Assembly: GCA_903939115.1 (NCBI GenBank)
Contig: CAJAFV010000056.1
Span: 62,001 to 126,000 of the forward strand
Direction: 5' to 3'
Length of the DNA: 64,000 nt
From: an uncultured Geobacteraceae bacterium
Lineage (GTDB): Bacteria; Desulfobacterota; Desulfuromonadia; Geobacterales; Pseudopelobacteraceae
In this document: piece after piece, positions 3,966 through 10,185 of the stretch
Layout of the letters: each line of letters opens with the position of its first letter
Numbering within the stretch: the first letter of the stretch is position 1
Notes under the pieces: generated by a model
What the model was told of the DNA's origin: nothing
Seen by the model: the letters and a program-made list of their open reading frames with translations, nothing else
Database searches by the model: none
Made by a program: the position numbers and the translations under genes

Positions 3966-4313
3966 ATGCCTTTAAGCAGTTCTGTTCGGGAAAACGGCGC
4001 AATTATTATTACCAGCGGCGCCCGCCTGACGATTGAAAATGCTGCAGAGTTTTCACGGATTGCCCGTGAAGCCCTGGAAGCTTCTGATAACGTTGCGATA
4101 GAATTTGATCCGGAGGTTGAGATCGACATCACCGGTGTTCAGATTCTCTGCTCAGCCTGTAGAAGCGCTGCTGCAAGCGGCGCCATTTTTACATACCACG
4201 GAGCTCAACCGCAGGCGCTGGCGGACATCATCACCAGCAGCGGCGCCGGGCGTTACTCCGTATGCAAGCACAACAACGATTCCACCTGTATCTGGTTTGG
4301 AGGTGCCAACTAA
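3966..4313 (+). CDS. STAS-domain protein
   Basis: Small 115-residue single-domain protein resembling STAS domains (SpoIIAA or MlaB-like fold). A strong ribosome binding site AGGAGA lies at 3955-3960. The segment 'EIDITGVQILCSACRSA' matches the conserved loop and helix where anti-anti-sigma factors carry their phosphorylated Ser/Thr; here a Thr follows the acidic-hydrophobic pair. Its stop codon overlaps the cheY start (TAATG at 4311-4315), so the two are probably translationally coupled. STAS proteins are found in several non-enteric chemotaxis clusters, where they may act as phospho-switches or partners of kinases; which partner it has here is unknown. Confidence 0.8.
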   Translation: MPLSSSVRENGAIIITSGARLTIENAAEFSRIAREALEASDNVAIEFDPEVEIDITGVQILCSACRSAAASGAIFTYHGAQPQALADIITSSGAGRYSVCKHNNDSTCIWFGGAN

Positions 4314-4678
4314 TGGCAAAATTAATCATGTCGGCAGACGATTCTGCCAGTGTTCGGCAGATGGTGGCATTTACCCTTAGACAGAACGGCTATGACGTTG
4401 TTGAAGCTGTTGACGGCGCAGACGCCCTCAATAAACTTAACTCCATGAAAGTCGACATGCTGCTGACCGACCTCAACATGCCCAACTTGGACGGCATCGG
4501 CCTTATCAAAGGTGTCCGCGCCGGCACCCTCAATAGATTTATCCCGATTGTCATGCTGACTACCGAATCAAACGACGCCAAAAAGGCCGAAGGCAAAGCT
4601 GCCGGGGCCACCGGCTGGATTGTCAAACCCTTCAAGCCGGAACAGTTGATCGCTGTTATTAAAAAGGTATTGGGATGA
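4313..4678 (+). CDS. cheY: CheY-like single-domain response regulator
   Basis: Stand-alone receiver domain of 121 residues. The start at ATG 4313 overlaps the stop of the STAS gene; an upstream in-frame alternative at 4262 would add a non-conserved tail. Visible receiver features are 'MSADDSASVRQMV' (acidic pocket), 'DMLLTDLNMPNLDGIGLI' (phospho-acceptor Asp in 'LLTDLNMP'), 'MLTTES' (Thr switch) and 'GWIVKPF' (Lys switch). There is no output domain. The gene lies 4 bp before cheA, so it is the likely direct phosphorylation target of this CheA. Confidence 0.94.
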   Translation: MAKLIMSADDSASVRQMVAFTLRQNGYDVVEAVDGADALNKLNSMKVDMLLTDLNMPNLDGIGLIKGVRAGTLNRFIPIVMLTTESNDAKKAEGKAAGATGWIVKPFKPEQLIAVIKKVLG

Positions 4679-4682
4679 GATT

Positions 4683-6791
4683 ATGATGGAAGAAGCCATT
4701 GCAACGTATCGAGAGGAAGCCGGTGAACTTCTTGCAGAGCTGGAAACCTCTCTGCTGGAACTCGAAGAAACCCCCGATGACAACGAACTTATCAACCGGG
4801 TATTCAGAGCCATGCACACCATCAAAGGCTCTGGAGCGATGTTCGGCTTCGACGAAATCGCCTCCTTTACTCATGAAGTCGAAACCGTCTTCGATATGGT
4901 TCGTAACGGTAAGATGGCAGTCACCAAACGCCTGCTGGACCTGGCGCTTAAATCCCGGGACCACATAATCTACCTGCTCAGCTGTCCGCTTGGAGAAGAA
5001 GTTGACCGCAGAGATGGTAACGAGATTATTGCCGGTCTGCGCCATCTGGTGCCGCAGGCAGAAATGCCGGAACAAGGTCCCAGCGAAGTACCGGTAAATT
5101 GCCTGCTGACGGCCTTAGTAGACGAACCGGCCGACGAATACACCTGGCGTATCCGCTTTCGTCCCGCCGCCAATATCCTTATGTGCGGAACCAATCCGCT
5201 TATCCTGTTCAATGAGCTTCGTGGCCTGGGAAACGTACACATTGTTGCCCAGCTCGATGAAATTCCTCCGCTCGACAGCCTGGTCGGCGAGAACTGTTAT
5301 ATCTACTGGGACATTATACTGACGACGACTCGTGGTGAGGACGCCATTAAGGACGTCTTCATCTTTGTTGAAGATGACTGCTATGTCAAAATAGAACTGA
5401 TAGACAAAAGTGGCTTGATAGACAAAGAGCAGGGCTACAAAAAACTGGGCGACATTCTGGTTGAGCGAGGTGACCTTTCTCCGGTAGAGATGCAGAAAAT
5501 AATTATGCTGCAGAAGCGTTTTGGAGAACTGCTGGTTGAACAGGGTATCGTCTCCTCCGAAAAAGTCCATTCGGCTCTTGTTGAACAGGAACATGTCAAA
5601 AGCGTCCGCAAAGATCGGAGTGAAACTCCGTCGGTTGAAGTTGCCGCCAGTGTTCGCGTCCCGGTCGAACGCCTCTATCAACTCACCAACCTCGTCGGCG
5701 AAATAGTTACCGTTCAATCACACCTCTCTCAGGTCTCTTTGGCCGGAGGCGATGCGACATTTATCGCCATATCAGAAGAGGTCGAGCGTCTCACCAATGA
5801 ACTCAGGGATACTGCACTCAACATCTGCATGCTTCCGATCGGCAGTACCTTCAGTAAATTCAGGCGCTTCGTTCGTGATCTCTCCAGCGAACTCGGTAAA
5901 GAGGTCGAAATGGAAACCTTCGGTGCTGACACCGAACTGGACAAGACCGTTATCGAAAAGCTTAACGATCCGCTGTTGCACATCATACGGAACAGCATCG
6001 ATCACGGCATCGAAATGCCTGAAGTTCGAATGGCGGCCGGTAAATCTTCACGAGGCACGGTCTTCTTGAGAGCGGAACACTCCGGCGACTCGGTACTGGT
6101 GTCCATTCGTGATGACGGAGCCGGTCTCAATCGGGATCTCATTCTCGCGAAAGCTGTTGAGAGGGGTCTTCTATCGGCCACGGCGGATGTCTCGGACAAG
6201 GAAATCTATGCACAGATTTTTACCCCCGGTTTTTCGACTGCCGAAAAGATAACCAGTATCTCCGGTCGCGGGGTAGGGATGGATGTCGTCAAACGGAGTA
6301 TCGATAGTTTGCGGGGAACAATCAGTGTGAACAGTGTGCGGTGTGTCGGCACGACCATCACCCTTAAAATTCCGTTGACTCTGGCTATCATCGACAGCCT
6401 GCTGGTCAAAATCGGCAATGACCATTTTGTTCTGCCGCTGGCGGAGGTTGAGGAGTGCATTGAACTGACCAGGGAGGATATAAAAAAATCGCACGGCCGC
6501 AATCTGGCAAATGTGCGCGGCGCAATCATCCCCTATATCCCGTTGCGACAGCTCTTTAACATCACTGGCCAATGCCCTGACGTTGAACAGATTGTTATTG
6601 CCAATATCCACGGCACCAAGGTCGGCTTTGTGGTGGATCAAGTAGTGGGAGAGCATCAGGCCGTCATAAAGTCGCTTGGTAAAATGTACCGTGACGTAAA
6701 GGGTGTTTCCGGTGCGACCATGCTGGGTGATGGAACTGTCGCATTGATTCTTGATATGAGTTTTCTGCTGCTAGCGGTGGAGGGGTCTTAG
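4683..6791 (+). CDS. cheA: CheA chemotaxis histidine kinase with tandem MshEN-like motifs
   Basis: Chemotaxis kinase of 702 residues that autophosphorylates on an HPt histidine and passes phosphate to CheY and CheB. Residues 1-105 form the HPt domain with His45 in 'MHTIKGSGAMFGF'. Residues about 150-240 form a region that may replace P2. Residues 254-302 hold two tandem 24-residue motifs ('KLGDILVERGDLS' and 'RFGELLVEQGIVS', each ending in Gln). Then come the P3 dimerization helices, the HATPase domain with N-box 'NDPLLHIIRNSIDHG' and G-box 'SGRGVGMDVV', and a C-terminal CheW-like domain from about residue 565. The stop overlaps the cheR GTG start by one base. Kinase function is well supported; the role of the insert is unknown. 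Confidence 0.95.
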   Translation: MMEEAIATYREEAGELLAELETSLLELEETPDDNELINRVFRAMHTIKGSGAMFGFDEIASFTHEVETVFDMVRNGKMAVTKRLLDLALKSRDHIIYLLSCPLGEEVDRRDGNEIIAGLRHLVPQAEMPEQGPSEVPVNCLLTALVDEPADEYTWRIRFRPAANILMCGTNPLILFNELRGLGNVHIVAQLDEIPPLDSLVGENCYIYWDIILTTTRGEDAIKDVFIFVEDDCYVKIELIDKSGLIDKEQGYKKLGDILVERGDLSPVEMQKIIMLQKRFGELLVEQGIVSSEKVHSALVEQEHVKSVRKDRSETPSVEVAASVRVPVERLYQLTNLVGEIVTVQSHLSQVSLAGGDATFIAISEEVERLTNELRDTALNICMLPIGSTFSKFRRFVRDLSSELGKEVEMETFGADTELDKTVIEKLNDPLLHIIRNSIDHGIEMPEVRMAAGKSSRGTVFLRAEHSGDSVLVSIRDDGAGLNRDLILAKAVERGLLSATADVSDKEIYAQIFTPGFSTAEKITSISGRGVGMDVVKRSIDSLRGTISVNSVRCVGTTITLKIPLTLAIIDSLLVKIGNDHFVLPLAEVEECIELTREDIKKSHGRNLANVRGAIIPYIPLRQLFNITGQCPDVEQIVIANIHGTKVGFVVDQVVGEHQAVIKSLGKMYRDVKGVSGATMLGDGTVALILDMSFLLLAVEGS

Positions 6792-7657
6792 TGGTACACC
6801 AGAGTGACTATATGATTACTCGTCTGCCGGCTACACTGTCCGATAAGGAATTTGTTCGATTCAGTACATTTATTAGCGACCATGCGGGCATTAAAATGCC
6901 TTACACCAAGAAGACTATGCTTGAAGCACGTCTGCAGAAGCGGTTGAAGGCCAACAATATTCATTCATTTGAGGAATACGGCGATTTTGTTTTCAGTAGA
7001 GAGGGGTGTCCCAGCGAGCTCATCCATCTGATTGATGTTGTGACTACGAATAAAACAGATTTCTTCCGTGAATCCGGTCACTTTGATTTTTTGGTAAAAA
7101 CAGCATTACCGAATATTCTTGAGTCACGCGTGGATGTAGTACGAGATCCGATCCGGATCTGGAGCGCCGGCTGTTCGACCGGTGAAGAACCGTATACCAT
7201 AGCCATGGTGCTCTCCGAGTTCGCTATCGGGCGTCCCAACTTTCGGGCCGCAATAACTGCTTCAGATATCTCTACGCAGGTTTTGCAGACGGCAAAAACA
7301 GGCATCTATCCTGAAGAACGAACCGATCCCATTCCTCTGAACCTGAAGAAAAAGTATCTGATGCGCAGTCGCGAAAAATCAAAGTCTCTTGTACGGATTT
7401 CCTCTGCGGTACGTTCACTGGTTACTTTCAAACGTATTAATTTCATGGATGACGACTTTGGCATAGCTGAAAAAATGGATGTTATTTTCTGCCGCAATGT
7501 TGTGATTTACTTCGATAAACCGACCCAACAGACCCTGATGAGGAATTTTTACAAACAGCTGAGGCCGGGAGGCTACCTTTTTATCGGACATTCAGAAACG
7601 CTGAGCGGGCTGAATGTTGATTTTAAGGCGGTAGCTTCAACGGTGTACAGGAAGTAG
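6791..7657 (+). CDS. cheR: CheR protein-glutamate methyltransferase
   Basis: S-adenosylmethionine-dependent methyltransferase that methylates receptor glutamates during adaptation. The protein has 288 residues with an N-terminal helical CheR_N domain and a SAM-binding domain carrying 'WSAGCSTGEEPYT' and 'VIFCRNVVIYFDK'. The likely start is GTG 6791, which overlaps the cheA stop (TAGTG); an internal ATG seven codons later is the alternative. There are no tetratricopeptide or C-terminal accessory domains. It directly abuts cheB, consistent with paired methylation and demethylation. Confidence 0.95.
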   Translation: MVHQSDYMITRLPATLSDKEFVRFSTFISDHAGIKMPYTKKTMLEARLQKRLKANNIHSFEEYGDFVFSREGCPSELIHLIDVVTTNKTDFFRESGHFDFLVKTALPNILESRVDVVRDPIRIWSAGCSTGEEPYTIAMVLSEFAIGRPNFRAAITASDISTQVLQTAKTGIYPEERTDPIPLNLKKKYLMRSREKSKSLVRISSAVRSLVTFKRINFMDDDFGIAEKMDVIFCRNVVIYFDKPTQQTLMRNFYKQLRPGGYLFIGHSETLSGLNVDFKAVASTVYRK

Positions 7658-8752
7658 ATGAGACCCATTACCCCCTCACATAAACACAAAATTACGGTCT
7701 TGGTAATAGACGATTCAGCTCTGGTTCGTCAGACTCTGTGCGATATCCTGAACTCAGACCCGGAAATCGAGGTTATCGGCTCTGCCGGTGATCCGATTCT
7801 GGCTGCAGAGTTTATGAGAACAGTAGTCCCCGATGTGATTACGCTGGATGTTGAAATGCCACGCATGGATGGTTTGGCTTTTCTTCAAAAACTGATGAGT
7901 CAACATCCGATCCCGGTGGTTATGTGTTCCAGTCTCACCGAACGAGGCAATGAAACGTCGCTCAAGGCGCTTGAATACGGAGCTGTAGATATTATAACCA
8001 AGCCTAAAATGGGGACGAAACGGTTTATTGAGGAATCCCGGGTACGTATCTGCGATGCAGTGAAAGGTGCTGCAGTAGCCCGCCTGGGCAAAATGCGGGC
8101 GATGCGTACCATGCGGGAAGTCCAGCCGAAATACACCGCTGATGTCATCATGGAAAAACCGAATTCAAACGCGATGATTCAGACGACCGAAAAGGTTGTC
8201 GTGGTGGGGGCTTCAACTGGTGGTACTGTAGCACTCAGGGTTTTTCTTGAAATGCTGCCGGAGGATACCCCTGGTATTGTCATAGTGCAACATATGCCGG
8301 AAAACTTCACAACTGCCTTTGCCAAGAGCCTTGACTCAAACTGCCGTGTGACCGTAAAAGAAGCCCAGGATAATGACACTGTGATGCGCGGCAGAGTTCT
8401 GATCGCACCCGGCAACCATCACGTGCTGCTCAAAAGGAGCGGTTCCCGTTATTACGTCGAGATAAAAGACGGCCCTCTTGTTTCACGTCACCGGCCGTCA
8501 GTCGATGTGCTGTTCCGGTCGGCAGCCCGCTATGCCGGTAAAAACGCAGTTGGTGTAATCATGACCGGTATGGGGGATGACGGCGCTCGCGGCATGAAGG
8601 AGATGTTCGATGCCGGGGCAGTCACCATTGCTCAGGATGAAGCGACCTGTGTGGTTTACGGCATGCCGTGCGAGGCGGTAAAATCCGGCGGCGTCGACAG
8701 GATCATGCCGCTGCAGAATATAGCTCATGAAGTACTGAGGCTATGCAGCTGA
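7658..8752 (+). CDS. cheB: CheB receptor methylesterase/deamidase
   Basis: Two-domain adaptation enzyme of 364 residues that removes receptor methyl groups. The N-terminal receiver domain shows '[14 protein letters not shown]' and '[14 protein letters not shown]', where the Asp is phosphorylated by CheA. The C-terminal esterase domain keeps the catalytic triad regions: '[11 protein letters not shown]' (Ser), '[10 protein letters not shown]' (His) and '[12 protein letters not shown]' (Asp). The start codon follows the cheR stop with no gap. The protein is the usual family length, with no sign of damage. Confidence 0.95.
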
Positions 8753-8770
8753 ATTTACAAGGAGTCATGC

Positions 8771-9661
8771 ATGAACGCAACCGATGATGCTCTGATTGAA
8801 GAACTGTCAAAACGATTCGCCCAAAGCCGCAAGGCTTTTTCTGATTTGAGCGTGGTCAATCGTAAACTGTTAGAGATGAACGAACGGCTGGAGCGTTCTG
8901 AATCCCTTAAAAGCAGCTTCCTCTCTAATATTCGCAACGAAATTATCAATCCCCTCAACGCGATTATGGGCATGGCCGGACAGTTGGCTCAGATTGGTGC
9001 GGGTAATGAAGAAATCACGTCGCTCTCTTCACTGATTGGAGCGGAAGCCTATCACCTTGATTTTCAGTTGCGGAATATCTTCATGGCGGCGGAACTGGAA
9101 GCGGGGGAAGTCAGCCCTCACTGCATTAAAGTTCATATAGCCGGGGTGTTGCGCGATCTGGTGGATTCGTTCCTGCACAGTGCGACAAAAAAGAACGTGA
9201 CACTTACCCTGCATCAGTCAAAGGTCGATGACAGTAGTCTTGTGGTCGTTGATTTGGATAAAATTCAGATTATCATCTCCAATCTGCTGTCTAACGCCAT
9301 TGAATTCAGCTGTATCGGTGGTGCTGTTGATGTTTCGTACGCAATTTCAGGAGATGGTTCCTTGCAGGTATTTGTTCAGGATCAAGGTATCGGGATCGCT
9401 GTGAAAGATCAGCAACGCATATTCGACCGCTTCGTGCAACTGGATGCAGGGACCACTCGCTCGCATCTGGGGCATGGCCTTGGGCTCAGTATTTCCAAGG
9501 CGCTTGTTGATCTTCTGCAAGGCGATATCAGCCTGATCAGTACTCCCGGTGATGGTACGCTGTTTACGGTGACGATTCCACCCCACTCACTATTGGACGA
9601 TGATGATTCGTTTTCGGAAGCCGGTAACCTGTTTGTTTTCAGTGACTTGAGAGAGGCATAG
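8771..9661 (+). CDS. Histidine-kinase-like protein lacking the phospho-acceptor histidine
   Basis: Cytoplasmic protein of 296 residues with an N-terminal coiled coil (about 1-48), a HisKA-like helical domain and a complete-looking HATPase domain (about 150-275). The X-region motif reads 'FLSNIRNEIINPLNAIMG', where usual kinases have a His at the position occupied here by Asn56 (codon 8936-8938). ATP-site features remain: N-box 'IISNLLSNAIEFS', 'DQGIGIAVKDQ', and 'GLGLSISKALVDLL'. The gene follows cheB by 18 bp and precedes cheD, inside the chemotaxis operon. It may act as an ATP-dependent regulator or as a phosphatase of a receiver, or phosphorylate elsewhere. Loss of the His is seen directly; the role is inference. 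Confidence 0.85.
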   Translation: MNATDDALIEELSKRFAQSRKAFSDLSVVNRKLLEMNERLERSESLKSSFLSNIRNEIINPLNAIMGMAGQLAQIGAGNEEITSLSSLIGAEAYHLDFQLRNIFMAAELEAGEVSPHCIKVHIAGVLRDLVDSFLHSATKKNVTLTLHQSKVDDSSLVVVDLDKIQIIISNLLSNAIEFSCIGGAVDVSYAISGDGSLQVFVQDQGIGIAVKDQQRIFDRFVQLDAGTTRSHLGHGLGLSISKALVDLLQGDISLISTPGDGTLFTVTIPPHSLLDDDDSFSEAGNLFVFSDLREA

Positions 9662-9666
9662 TCAAC

Positions 9667-10185
9667 GTGAGCAGTGAAGGCAGGCCCAACAAACATTTTC
9701 TCTTTCCCGGTACTATCTTTGCCGAACCGCTTGAATATGAGATCAGTACGGTACTCGGTTCATGTGTGGCGGTCTGCCTGTGGGATCAGGTAATCCGCAG
9801 AGGCGGAATGAACCACATGATGCTACCGCTCTGGAATGGCGAGGGGTTGGCAACGCCCAAATACGGCAACATTGCTATGGAGAAACTGTTTGCCAAAGTG
9901 TTGTCAATCGGCTGCCATCGCGAACACCTGGTCGCCAAGGTTTTCGGCGGAGCCAATGTTACCGGAACCGGTCTCGAAGTATTCATGATTGGTGATCGCA
10001 ATATTACGCTGGCATTTCAACTCCTCGATGAATTCCGGATTCCTGTTGTTGCCAAAGATATTGGTGGCCAGGTCGGCAGGAAAATTATTATGAATACCGA
10101 AACTGGTGTTGTACTGGTTGGTAAAGGGAAAAAGACAGGATCCGATTCTTGTTCGTACCTTGACACCCCAGGCCTTTTAAGGTAA
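9667..10185 (+). CDS. cheD: CheD receptor glutamine deamidase
   Basis: Receptor-modifying deamidase of 172 residues that converts specific receptor glutamines to glutamates and, in other bacteria, also interacts with CheC. The catalytic Cys and His are visible in 'TVLGSCVAVCLWD' and 'RGGMNHMMLP', and 'AKVFGGANVTG' is also typical. The start is GTG 9667, five bases after the previous stop. No CheC or CheX phosphatase gene is visible in the window. It is the last gene of the chemotaxis cluster; 71 bp then separate it from kdsB. Confidence 0.93.
   Translation: MSSEGRPNKHFLFPGTIFAEPLEYEISTVLGSCVAVCLWDQVIRRGGMNHMMLPLWNGEGLATPKYGNIAMEKLFAKVLSIGCHREHLVAKVFGGANVTGTGLEVFMIGDRNITLAFQLLDEFRIPVVAKDIGGQVGRKIIMNTETGVVLVGKGKKTGSDSCSYLDTPGLLR

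Follow-up and report, generated by a model that had tools for sequence, protein, structure and literature searches.

A histidine kinase-like protein with asparagine at the phosphoacceptor position is encoded next to cheD in several phyla

We found that a gene located between cheB and cheD in an uncultured Geobacteraceae bacterium encodes a HisKA/HATPase_c protein, named NHK, which bears an asparagine at the position of the phosphorylated histidine, and that both this asparagine and the downstream cheD gene recur in every distinct homologue counted. These observations suggest that NHK is an old kinase that now reads or erases a phosphate signal, and that it works with CheD.

The NHK gene and its product

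NHK is encoded on the forward strand of the window (the whole stretch of 64,000 nucleotides analyzed here) at positions 8771–9661, as are all other features described below. Its reading frame extends from an ATG at 8771 to a stop codon at 9661, with the sequence AAGGAG lying upstream at 8759–8764. As originally described, the gene is inserted between cheB (7658–8752) and cheD (9667–10185; PF03975, 1e-25), and the packing is close, with cheD starting 5 nt downstream of NHK. Pfam searches revealed the following gene order upstream of NHK: cheW (incomplete at the start of the window), an MCP gene, a second MCP-like gene, a STAS gene, cheY, cheA (4683–6791), cheR (6791–7657) and cheB, the labels of the cheW fragment and of the first MCP gene being assigned by eye. 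The cheA, cheR and cheB genes constitute local context. The product of the cheY-like gene (4262–4678) is a receiver (PF00072, 6.1e-25 at aa 22–133) and a candidate substrate of NHK; its start is uncertain, and its ORF overlaps the STAS gene.

The 296-aa NHK protein matches Pfam HATPase_c (PF02518) above the cut-off (6.8e-27) at aa 161–271 (9251–9583). The match to HisKA (PF00512) scored 21.5 bits, below the cut-off of 26.9, and corresponds to a DHp domain at aa 47–112 (8909–9106) that is modeled as two long helices. In the AlphaFold2 model (mean pLDDT of 80.4), helices span residues 5–75 and 80–111 and are followed by the ATPase domain, while confidence is low at the ATP lid and at the tail from about residue 276 on. 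Foldseek placed DivL (4q20 as the top match) and HK853-RR468 complexes, including HK853 H260A with its receiver, at the head of the solved structures. No sensor domain was found, and Pfam returned no PAS match. The domain set of CheA (Hpt, dimerisation, HATPase and CheW-like) is absent as a whole, and the profile similarity of NHK to the CheA of the window is confined to the ATPase.

Conservation of the acceptor asparagine and of other NHK residues

Asn56 (codon AAC, 8936–8938) lies in the helix KSSFLSNIRNEIINPLNAIMG. When a profile of 64 homologues was aligned to HK853, Asn56 fell opposite the histidine of NISHELRTPL, E57 opposite the glutamate and N60 opposite the threonine; we take the corresponding HK853 residues to be H260, E261 and T264. 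The replacement of the phospho-histidine reported by the original prediction was borne out by this alignment and by the homologues, as the acceptor position is Asn in 130 of 130 distinct proteins, all lacking the phospho-histidine of active HisKA kinases. One scan of relatives used the Asn-containing FLSNIRNE beside an Asn-free pattern and gave the best 80 of 187 relatives, and its loci are biased; the other family searches used no acceptor pattern, yet the profile column contains Asn in some of them, and Asn was present in every family row read. Among the first 98 homologues, the codon is AAC in 56 and AAT in 42. The use of both indicates that the amino acid, not the codon, is held.

The adjacent residues E57-I-I-N60 (8939–8950) provide an acidic residue at H+1 and, at H+4, the asparagine of HisKA phosphatases, in which this position is Thr or Asn. 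Glu occupies H+1 in 128 of the 130 homologues, with Gln in L220 and L221, and Asn occupies H+4 in 124, the NHK of the window included (Asp in 3, Ser in 3). Most family members read Asn-Glu-x-x-Asn-Pro. With Asp or Ser at H+4 in six members and Gln at H+1 in two, the residues proposed below as catalytic vary more than Asn56 does. Since Asn56 is more constant even than Asn60, its side-chain amide may have a role of its own, for instance in receiver docking.

A histidine conserved elsewhere in the same helix had been named as a finding that would count against the prediction. Across 64 members, no conserved column of the DHp helices is a histidine, and this objection therefore falls away. In these members, the near-invariant histidines are H232 and H235, both in the ATP lid. 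H235 (9473–9475) belongs to the G2 box, GHGLGL, at a position where HK853 carries Thr. Furthermore, the N-box and G-boxes are as intact as first thought: the N, G1, F and G2 motifs are all present in the HATPase_c domain, and eleven ATP-site residues (N171, N175, D204, G206, G208, F218, R220, F221, G234, G236 and G238) are invariant in 98 of 98 homologues.

In its own genome, the NHK gene is the single site matching F[LF]xN[IM]xNE, compared to 31 sites for F[LF]xN[IM]xHE. Across 141 genomes, the Asn pattern occurs at 69 sites (5 for a reversed-pattern control), 52 of which are NHK genes; the remaining ones, G096:C413 and 16 others, lie outside this set of NHK genes. In a quick FastTree phylogeny, 103 Asn proteins were separated from 14 His-bearing kinases by a branch with full local support, and the branches are long. 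These 14 kinases (L002–L004 and L150–L160), which served as the outgroup, are outside the NHK counts, scoring at most 136 bits versus at least 175 for the family.

Past the ATPase domain, in a part of the model of low confidence, NHK carries the linear motif FSEAGNLFVF (aa 281–290, 9611–9640), in which G285, N286, F288 and F290 are conserved in 90, 91, 94 and 91 of 98 homologues, respectively. The resulting GN-x-F-x-F C-terminus (9611–9661) lies outside the catalytic fold, and Phe is the last residue in 44 of the 98 proteins. The terminal Phe often follows an acidic run, mostly outside Geobacterales (tails L055–L134 and L202–L252). Judging from its sequence, this tail is a possible docking peptide, and a likeness of its aromatic end to the C-terminal pentapeptides of receptors may be considered.

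CheD is the constant neighbor of NHK

Using tblastn, we found cheD directly downstream of NHK in 98 of 98 distinct loci. The same arrangement was observed in 32 further distinct loci (30 by tblastn, L220 and L221 by motif), for a total of 130/130, and in 49 of 49 strict-motif loci from the searches of the Nitrospirota and Magnetococcales phyla, which are partly repeats of the 98. Within 900 nt downstream of NHK, a single regular expression, T..LGSC...[NA]H, matched in 94 of the 98 loci and the looser G[SP]C...H in all of them, in keeping with the catalytic Thr, Cys and His of CheD, which we took from the T. maritima protein.

Conversely, the surroundings of the gene pair vary, from cheB-NHK-cheD in the window to cheW-NHK-cheD-cheR-cheB and cheR-NHK-cheD-cheB elsewhere. 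At least one core che gene (CheA, CheB, CheR, CheW or MCP) was found within 8 kb of NHK in 61 of the 98 loci. In 20 others, tblastn with the proteins of the window detected none over at least 4.4 kb on each side, a search by which distant che genes could be missed, and the remaining 17 were unscored because contig or stretch ends were too near. In several loci, NHK and CheD were the only che proteins found among those sought, CheY included. Eight Nitrospirota loci (L098, L101, L102, L108, L111, L113, L114 and L132), Ca. Magnetominusculus among them, carry NHK-cheD between dnaN and gyrB, and in the three of the eight whose ORFs were listed a dnaA-like ORF lies upstream; the names dnaA, dnaN and gyrB were given by eye in three loci, after which dnaN and gyrB were traced by tblastn.

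The comparison of homologues that had been suggested as a check thus gave a divided answer, as the asparagine is conserved and the gene does not always stay in the che operon. Of the roles first put forward, pseudokinase and receiver phosphatase remain the right candidates; the tie to the che operon and CheA is not supported, given the loci in which no core che gene was detected. The observation is therefore stronger than first claimed, and its interpretation is right in kind but has to be moved to CheD. Since cheD is constant and the core che genes are not, CheD is the first functional partner to look for. We set aside a role as a partner of CheA because in some NHK loci no cheA was detected in the vicinity.

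Ten genomes were looked up for CheD; four of them (L133, L122, L117 and Trichlorobacter thiogenes L086) yielded one CheD each, whose coordinates place it just downstream of NHK. We also built a tree of the 99 linked CheDs (98 and the window copy) with 39 other CheDs of the order; L195 was excluded from the latter because the best CheD there is the NHK-linked one. Linkage to NHK changes 2 times on this tree, compared to a mean of 34.3 in 500 shuffles. The smallest branch side containing all 99 linked CheDs adds just L165 and L187 (local support of 97), from genomes G008 and G007, respectively, which are 52–53% identical to the CheD of the window and have no NHK upstream. The history of the linkage can be read as one gain and one loss. 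L165 and L187 would represent natural losses of NHK, useful for probing CheD dependence. Pairwise distances of NHK and CheD are correlated (r = 0.896, best of 999 permutations 0.137), a pattern that shared vertical history alone would also produce.

The other CheDs of NHK-bearing genomes are encoded beside a match to the CheC model, between cheR and cheB, or without any of the sought che genes nearby. This model is short (38 positions), and its matches may also include CheX-like or FliN-like genes. Among the matches listed, one lies directly upstream of a CheD match in at least seven genomes of the order. The genome of the window yielded no CheC-model match, no CheZ match and one CheX. CheC-model matches occur in some NHK genomes, in G026 and G027 beside a different CheD, which argues against a simple replacement of CheC by NHK at the genome level, an idea that we consider unsupported.

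Distribution of the family

Homologues of NHK were found in 51 of 141 genomes of the order (E ≤ 1e-38). In a draw from the phylum, 26 of 395 genomes matched at E ≤ 1e-55, 11 of these matches being the long His-bearing kinases L150–L160. At E ≤ 1e-65, matches were obtained in 20 of 198 genomes from the phylum of a Nitrospirota genome and in 39 of 299 from the phylum of a Magnetococcales genome. The latter 39 fall at about every fourth genome in the order of the set, as if one class in an even draw carried the NHK gene almost always. Members of the family occur in Geobacterales, other Desulfuromonadia, Nitrospirota, Magnetococcales, and MAGs labelled Bacteroidota and KSB1, and record titles add MAGs named Cyclobacteriaceae, Bacteroidetes, KSB1 and Desulfuromonas; such MAG labels may be wrong.

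The 130 distinct members, counted on one anchored stretch, consist of the 98 and a further 32, which include L220 and L221. Nineteen of the 51 loci obtained from the searches of the Nitrospirota and Magnetococcales phyla repeat proteins of the 98. A weaker match, G130:C73 (592 aa), and nine NHK matches without a locus are outside the counts.

Pfam recognized general domains only in 64 members (HATPase_c in 64, HisKA in 62), and neither CheC nor CheX domains (PF04509, PF13690) among them. No family-specific model was found in Pfam or NCBIfam, the best NCBIfam scores of five members scanned being far below the cut-offs. A gene that the general models scanned could call just a 'sensor histidine kinase' now has a function that can be tested. 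Titles, abstract starts and passages of the open-access literature yielded no paper on the NHK family or on His-less kinases beside CheD. In the accessible main text of a survey of Geobacter chemotaxis, 'histidine kinase' appears once, for CheA (PMC2577667). Both kinds of protein concerned, pseudo-histidine kinases and CheD regulators, are already known; the NHK family itself is not in print as far as open-access searches tell.

A candidate receiver phosphatase coupled to CheD

Our proposal is that NHK, as a pseudo-histidine kinase, has a part beside CheD resembling that of CheC in Bacillus, namely that of a phosphatase of a phosphorylated receiver coupled to CheD, and we give this proposal slightly less than an even chance. 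From the residues, the gene linkage and the co-ancestry observed in the sequences, we infer receiver binding, hydrolysis, contact with CheD and a role for ATP. Having lost its histidine, NHK would be unable to phosphorylate a receiver in the usual way and would be left with reading or erasing the phosphate signal. The DHp dimer would dock a phosphorylated CheY-type receiver, either CheY or the receiver of CheB, and Asn60, perhaps together with Glu57 in an ExxN dyad, would orient a water molecule for hydrolysis of the aspartyl phosphate. Whether CheD is free to act on the chemoreceptors would then depend on the binding of receiver and nucleotide to NHK.

The kinase CrdS provides a precedent. 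Its H371A mutation abolished autophosphorylation and left the phosphatase mostly intact, as the half-life of the phosphorylated regulator was 2.6 min with the mutant, 0.7 min with the wild type and 53.5 min for the regulator alone; mutation of H+4 (N375A) abolished the phosphatase, with a half-life of 47.6 min (PMC3510030, Willett and Kirby). The histidine is thus needed for HisKA kinase activity and the H+4 asparagine for phosphatase activity, and ExxN is the active dyad of the CheY phosphatase CheX (PMC3510030). By analogy, NHK would keep exactly the half of the residues that CrdS H371A is left with for its phosphatase. In B. subtilis, where cheC and cheD are adjacent, CheC dephosphorylates CheY~P, and its binding to CheD tightens upon phosphorylation of CheY, whereby CheD is controlled (PMC3513319).

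Several results weigh against the phosphatase proposal. The adjacency of NHK and cheD is no proof of contact, and CheDs of the same clade are encoded without NHK in G007 and G008. The variation at H+4 and H+1 described above, beside an unvarying Asn56, also counts against it. The CheD site pattern of receptors and CheC, taken here as [AST]xx[QE][QE]x[AST], did not emerge as a conserved feature of the NHK proteins (no 3-residue bin had more than 9 matches over 98 proteins), so that NHK would need another mode of CheD binding than CheC. Glu at H+1 is kept in nearly all members although it is required for the kinase and not for the phosphatase of HisKA proteins (PMC3510030). Furthermore, both activities were lost in PleC H610A (PMC3510030), and a phosphatase without histidine is therefore not guaranteed.

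In its broadest form, the proposal holds that the acceptor was lost once in an ancestor and that NHK-CheD would be a branch of adaptation undescribed in the papers searched, in which NHK, depending on nucleotide, both reads and erases CheY~P and gates CheD in the role of CheC, as a two-gene cassette spread over several phyla, magnetotactic lineages included. We regard this form as possible but somewhat doubtful. CheC is the known protein partner of the adaptation enzyme CheD, as established mainly in Bacillus and Thermotoga; a partner derived from a histidine kinase throughout the family, if true, would mean that the same control problem has been solved a second time by unrelated means. NHK also amounts to a natural single-substitution experiment, a HisKA protein whose histidine is permanently gone, and being devoid of a sensor domain it offers a clean setting for questions about Asn56 and Asn60.

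NHK shares with HisKA phosphatase-type kinases (the HK853, CrdS and EnvZ class) the DHp and CA fold, Glu at H+1, Thr or Asn at H+4, and the N, G1, F and G2 boxes. Unlike them, it has no phospho-histidine, no sensor or membrane part was found in it, and it is fixed beside cheD. With CheC, CheX and FliY, it has in common the pairing with CheD (by gene linkage for NHK), the Glu-x-x-Asn pattern and the CheY~P phosphatase activity proposed here; the folds are unrelated, as NHK matches HisKA and HATPase_c and neither the CheC nor the CheX model, and the CheD site pattern of CheC is not conserved in NHK. A dedicated CheY~P phosphatase role, conceivable for NHK, is that of CheZ, which has a C-terminal tail outside its catalytic helices, as the NHK tail lies outside the fold, and which is not known to have an ATP domain. 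The active site of CheZ is DxxxQ (PMC3510030), unlike the one proposed for NHK.

Alternative readings

NHK could instead bind the phosphorylated receiver without hydrolysing it and signal to CheD by a change of shape, its enzyme activity being vestigial. DivL of Caulobacter, a His-less kinase retained for reading a phosphorylated receiver, behaves in this manner: it binds DivK~P specifically, showed no kinase or phosphatase activity, and can dispense with its CA domain (PMC4211667). DivL has a kinase fold and a non-His acceptor position like NHK, whose top Foldseek match it is, and the main role of CheC/CheD in B. subtilis is binding rather than enzyme activity (PMC3513319). However, DivL has Tyr instead of Asn at the acceptor position, PAS domains, which Pfam did not find in the 296 aa of NHK, and a DivK/CckA setting, and it binds nucleotide weakly (PMC4211667), whereas the ATP-site residues checked are invariant in NHK and the phosphatase asparagine at H+4 is retained in all but six of the 130 members. 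We consider this reading rather unlikely. Another His-less kinase is a Caulobacter hybrid kinase (PMC11481889).

A switch driven by nucleotide, with no receiver involved, has a small chance of being correct. NHK would bind or hydrolyse ATP and thereby control the deamidase activity of CheD or the way in which CheD reaches receptors, possibly by means of the GN-x-F-x-F tail. CheD as the sole constant neighbor, the conserved tail outside the catalytic fold, and the loci where NHK and CheD stand alone among the che proteins sought are all consistent with such a switch. However, the part of helix 1 at which receivers dock ranks with the best-conserved stretches of NHK, which argues that NHK still docks something receiver-like.

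Slightly less probable still is a trans kinase, in which the ATP domain of NHK would phosphorylate the histidine of the CheA Hpt domain or that of a HisKA kinase in a mixed dimer. Rhodobacter CheA3/CheA4 is an example of trans phosphorylation between partners, and the conserved ATP-site residues and E57, together with cheA in the gene cluster of the window, would agree with this activity. However, 20 of the 98 loci (those described above, over 4.4–8 kb on each side) show no CheA or other core che gene, inspection by eye of the ORFs listed for 17 loci revealed no recurrent kinase neighbor, and the constant neighbor is CheD. Finally, decay into a functionless kinase, which the loss of the acceptor alone and a stop codon inside the match of one copy (L222) would fit, is hardly credible given the same substitute residue in all 130 homologues and an ATP site and linkage that persist across phyla.

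Minor features of NHK and CheA

Close to its N-terminus, NHK bears the sequence TDxELIxEL (8780–8815, aa 4–15), which may resemble the CheY-binding peptide of FliM and CheZ. In the CheA of the window, a segment between the Hpt and dimerisation domains (aa 254–302) scored 34.9 bits against a MshE-type c-di-GMP-binding motif model with a cut-off of 38, and this CheA is possibly c-di-GMP-responsive.
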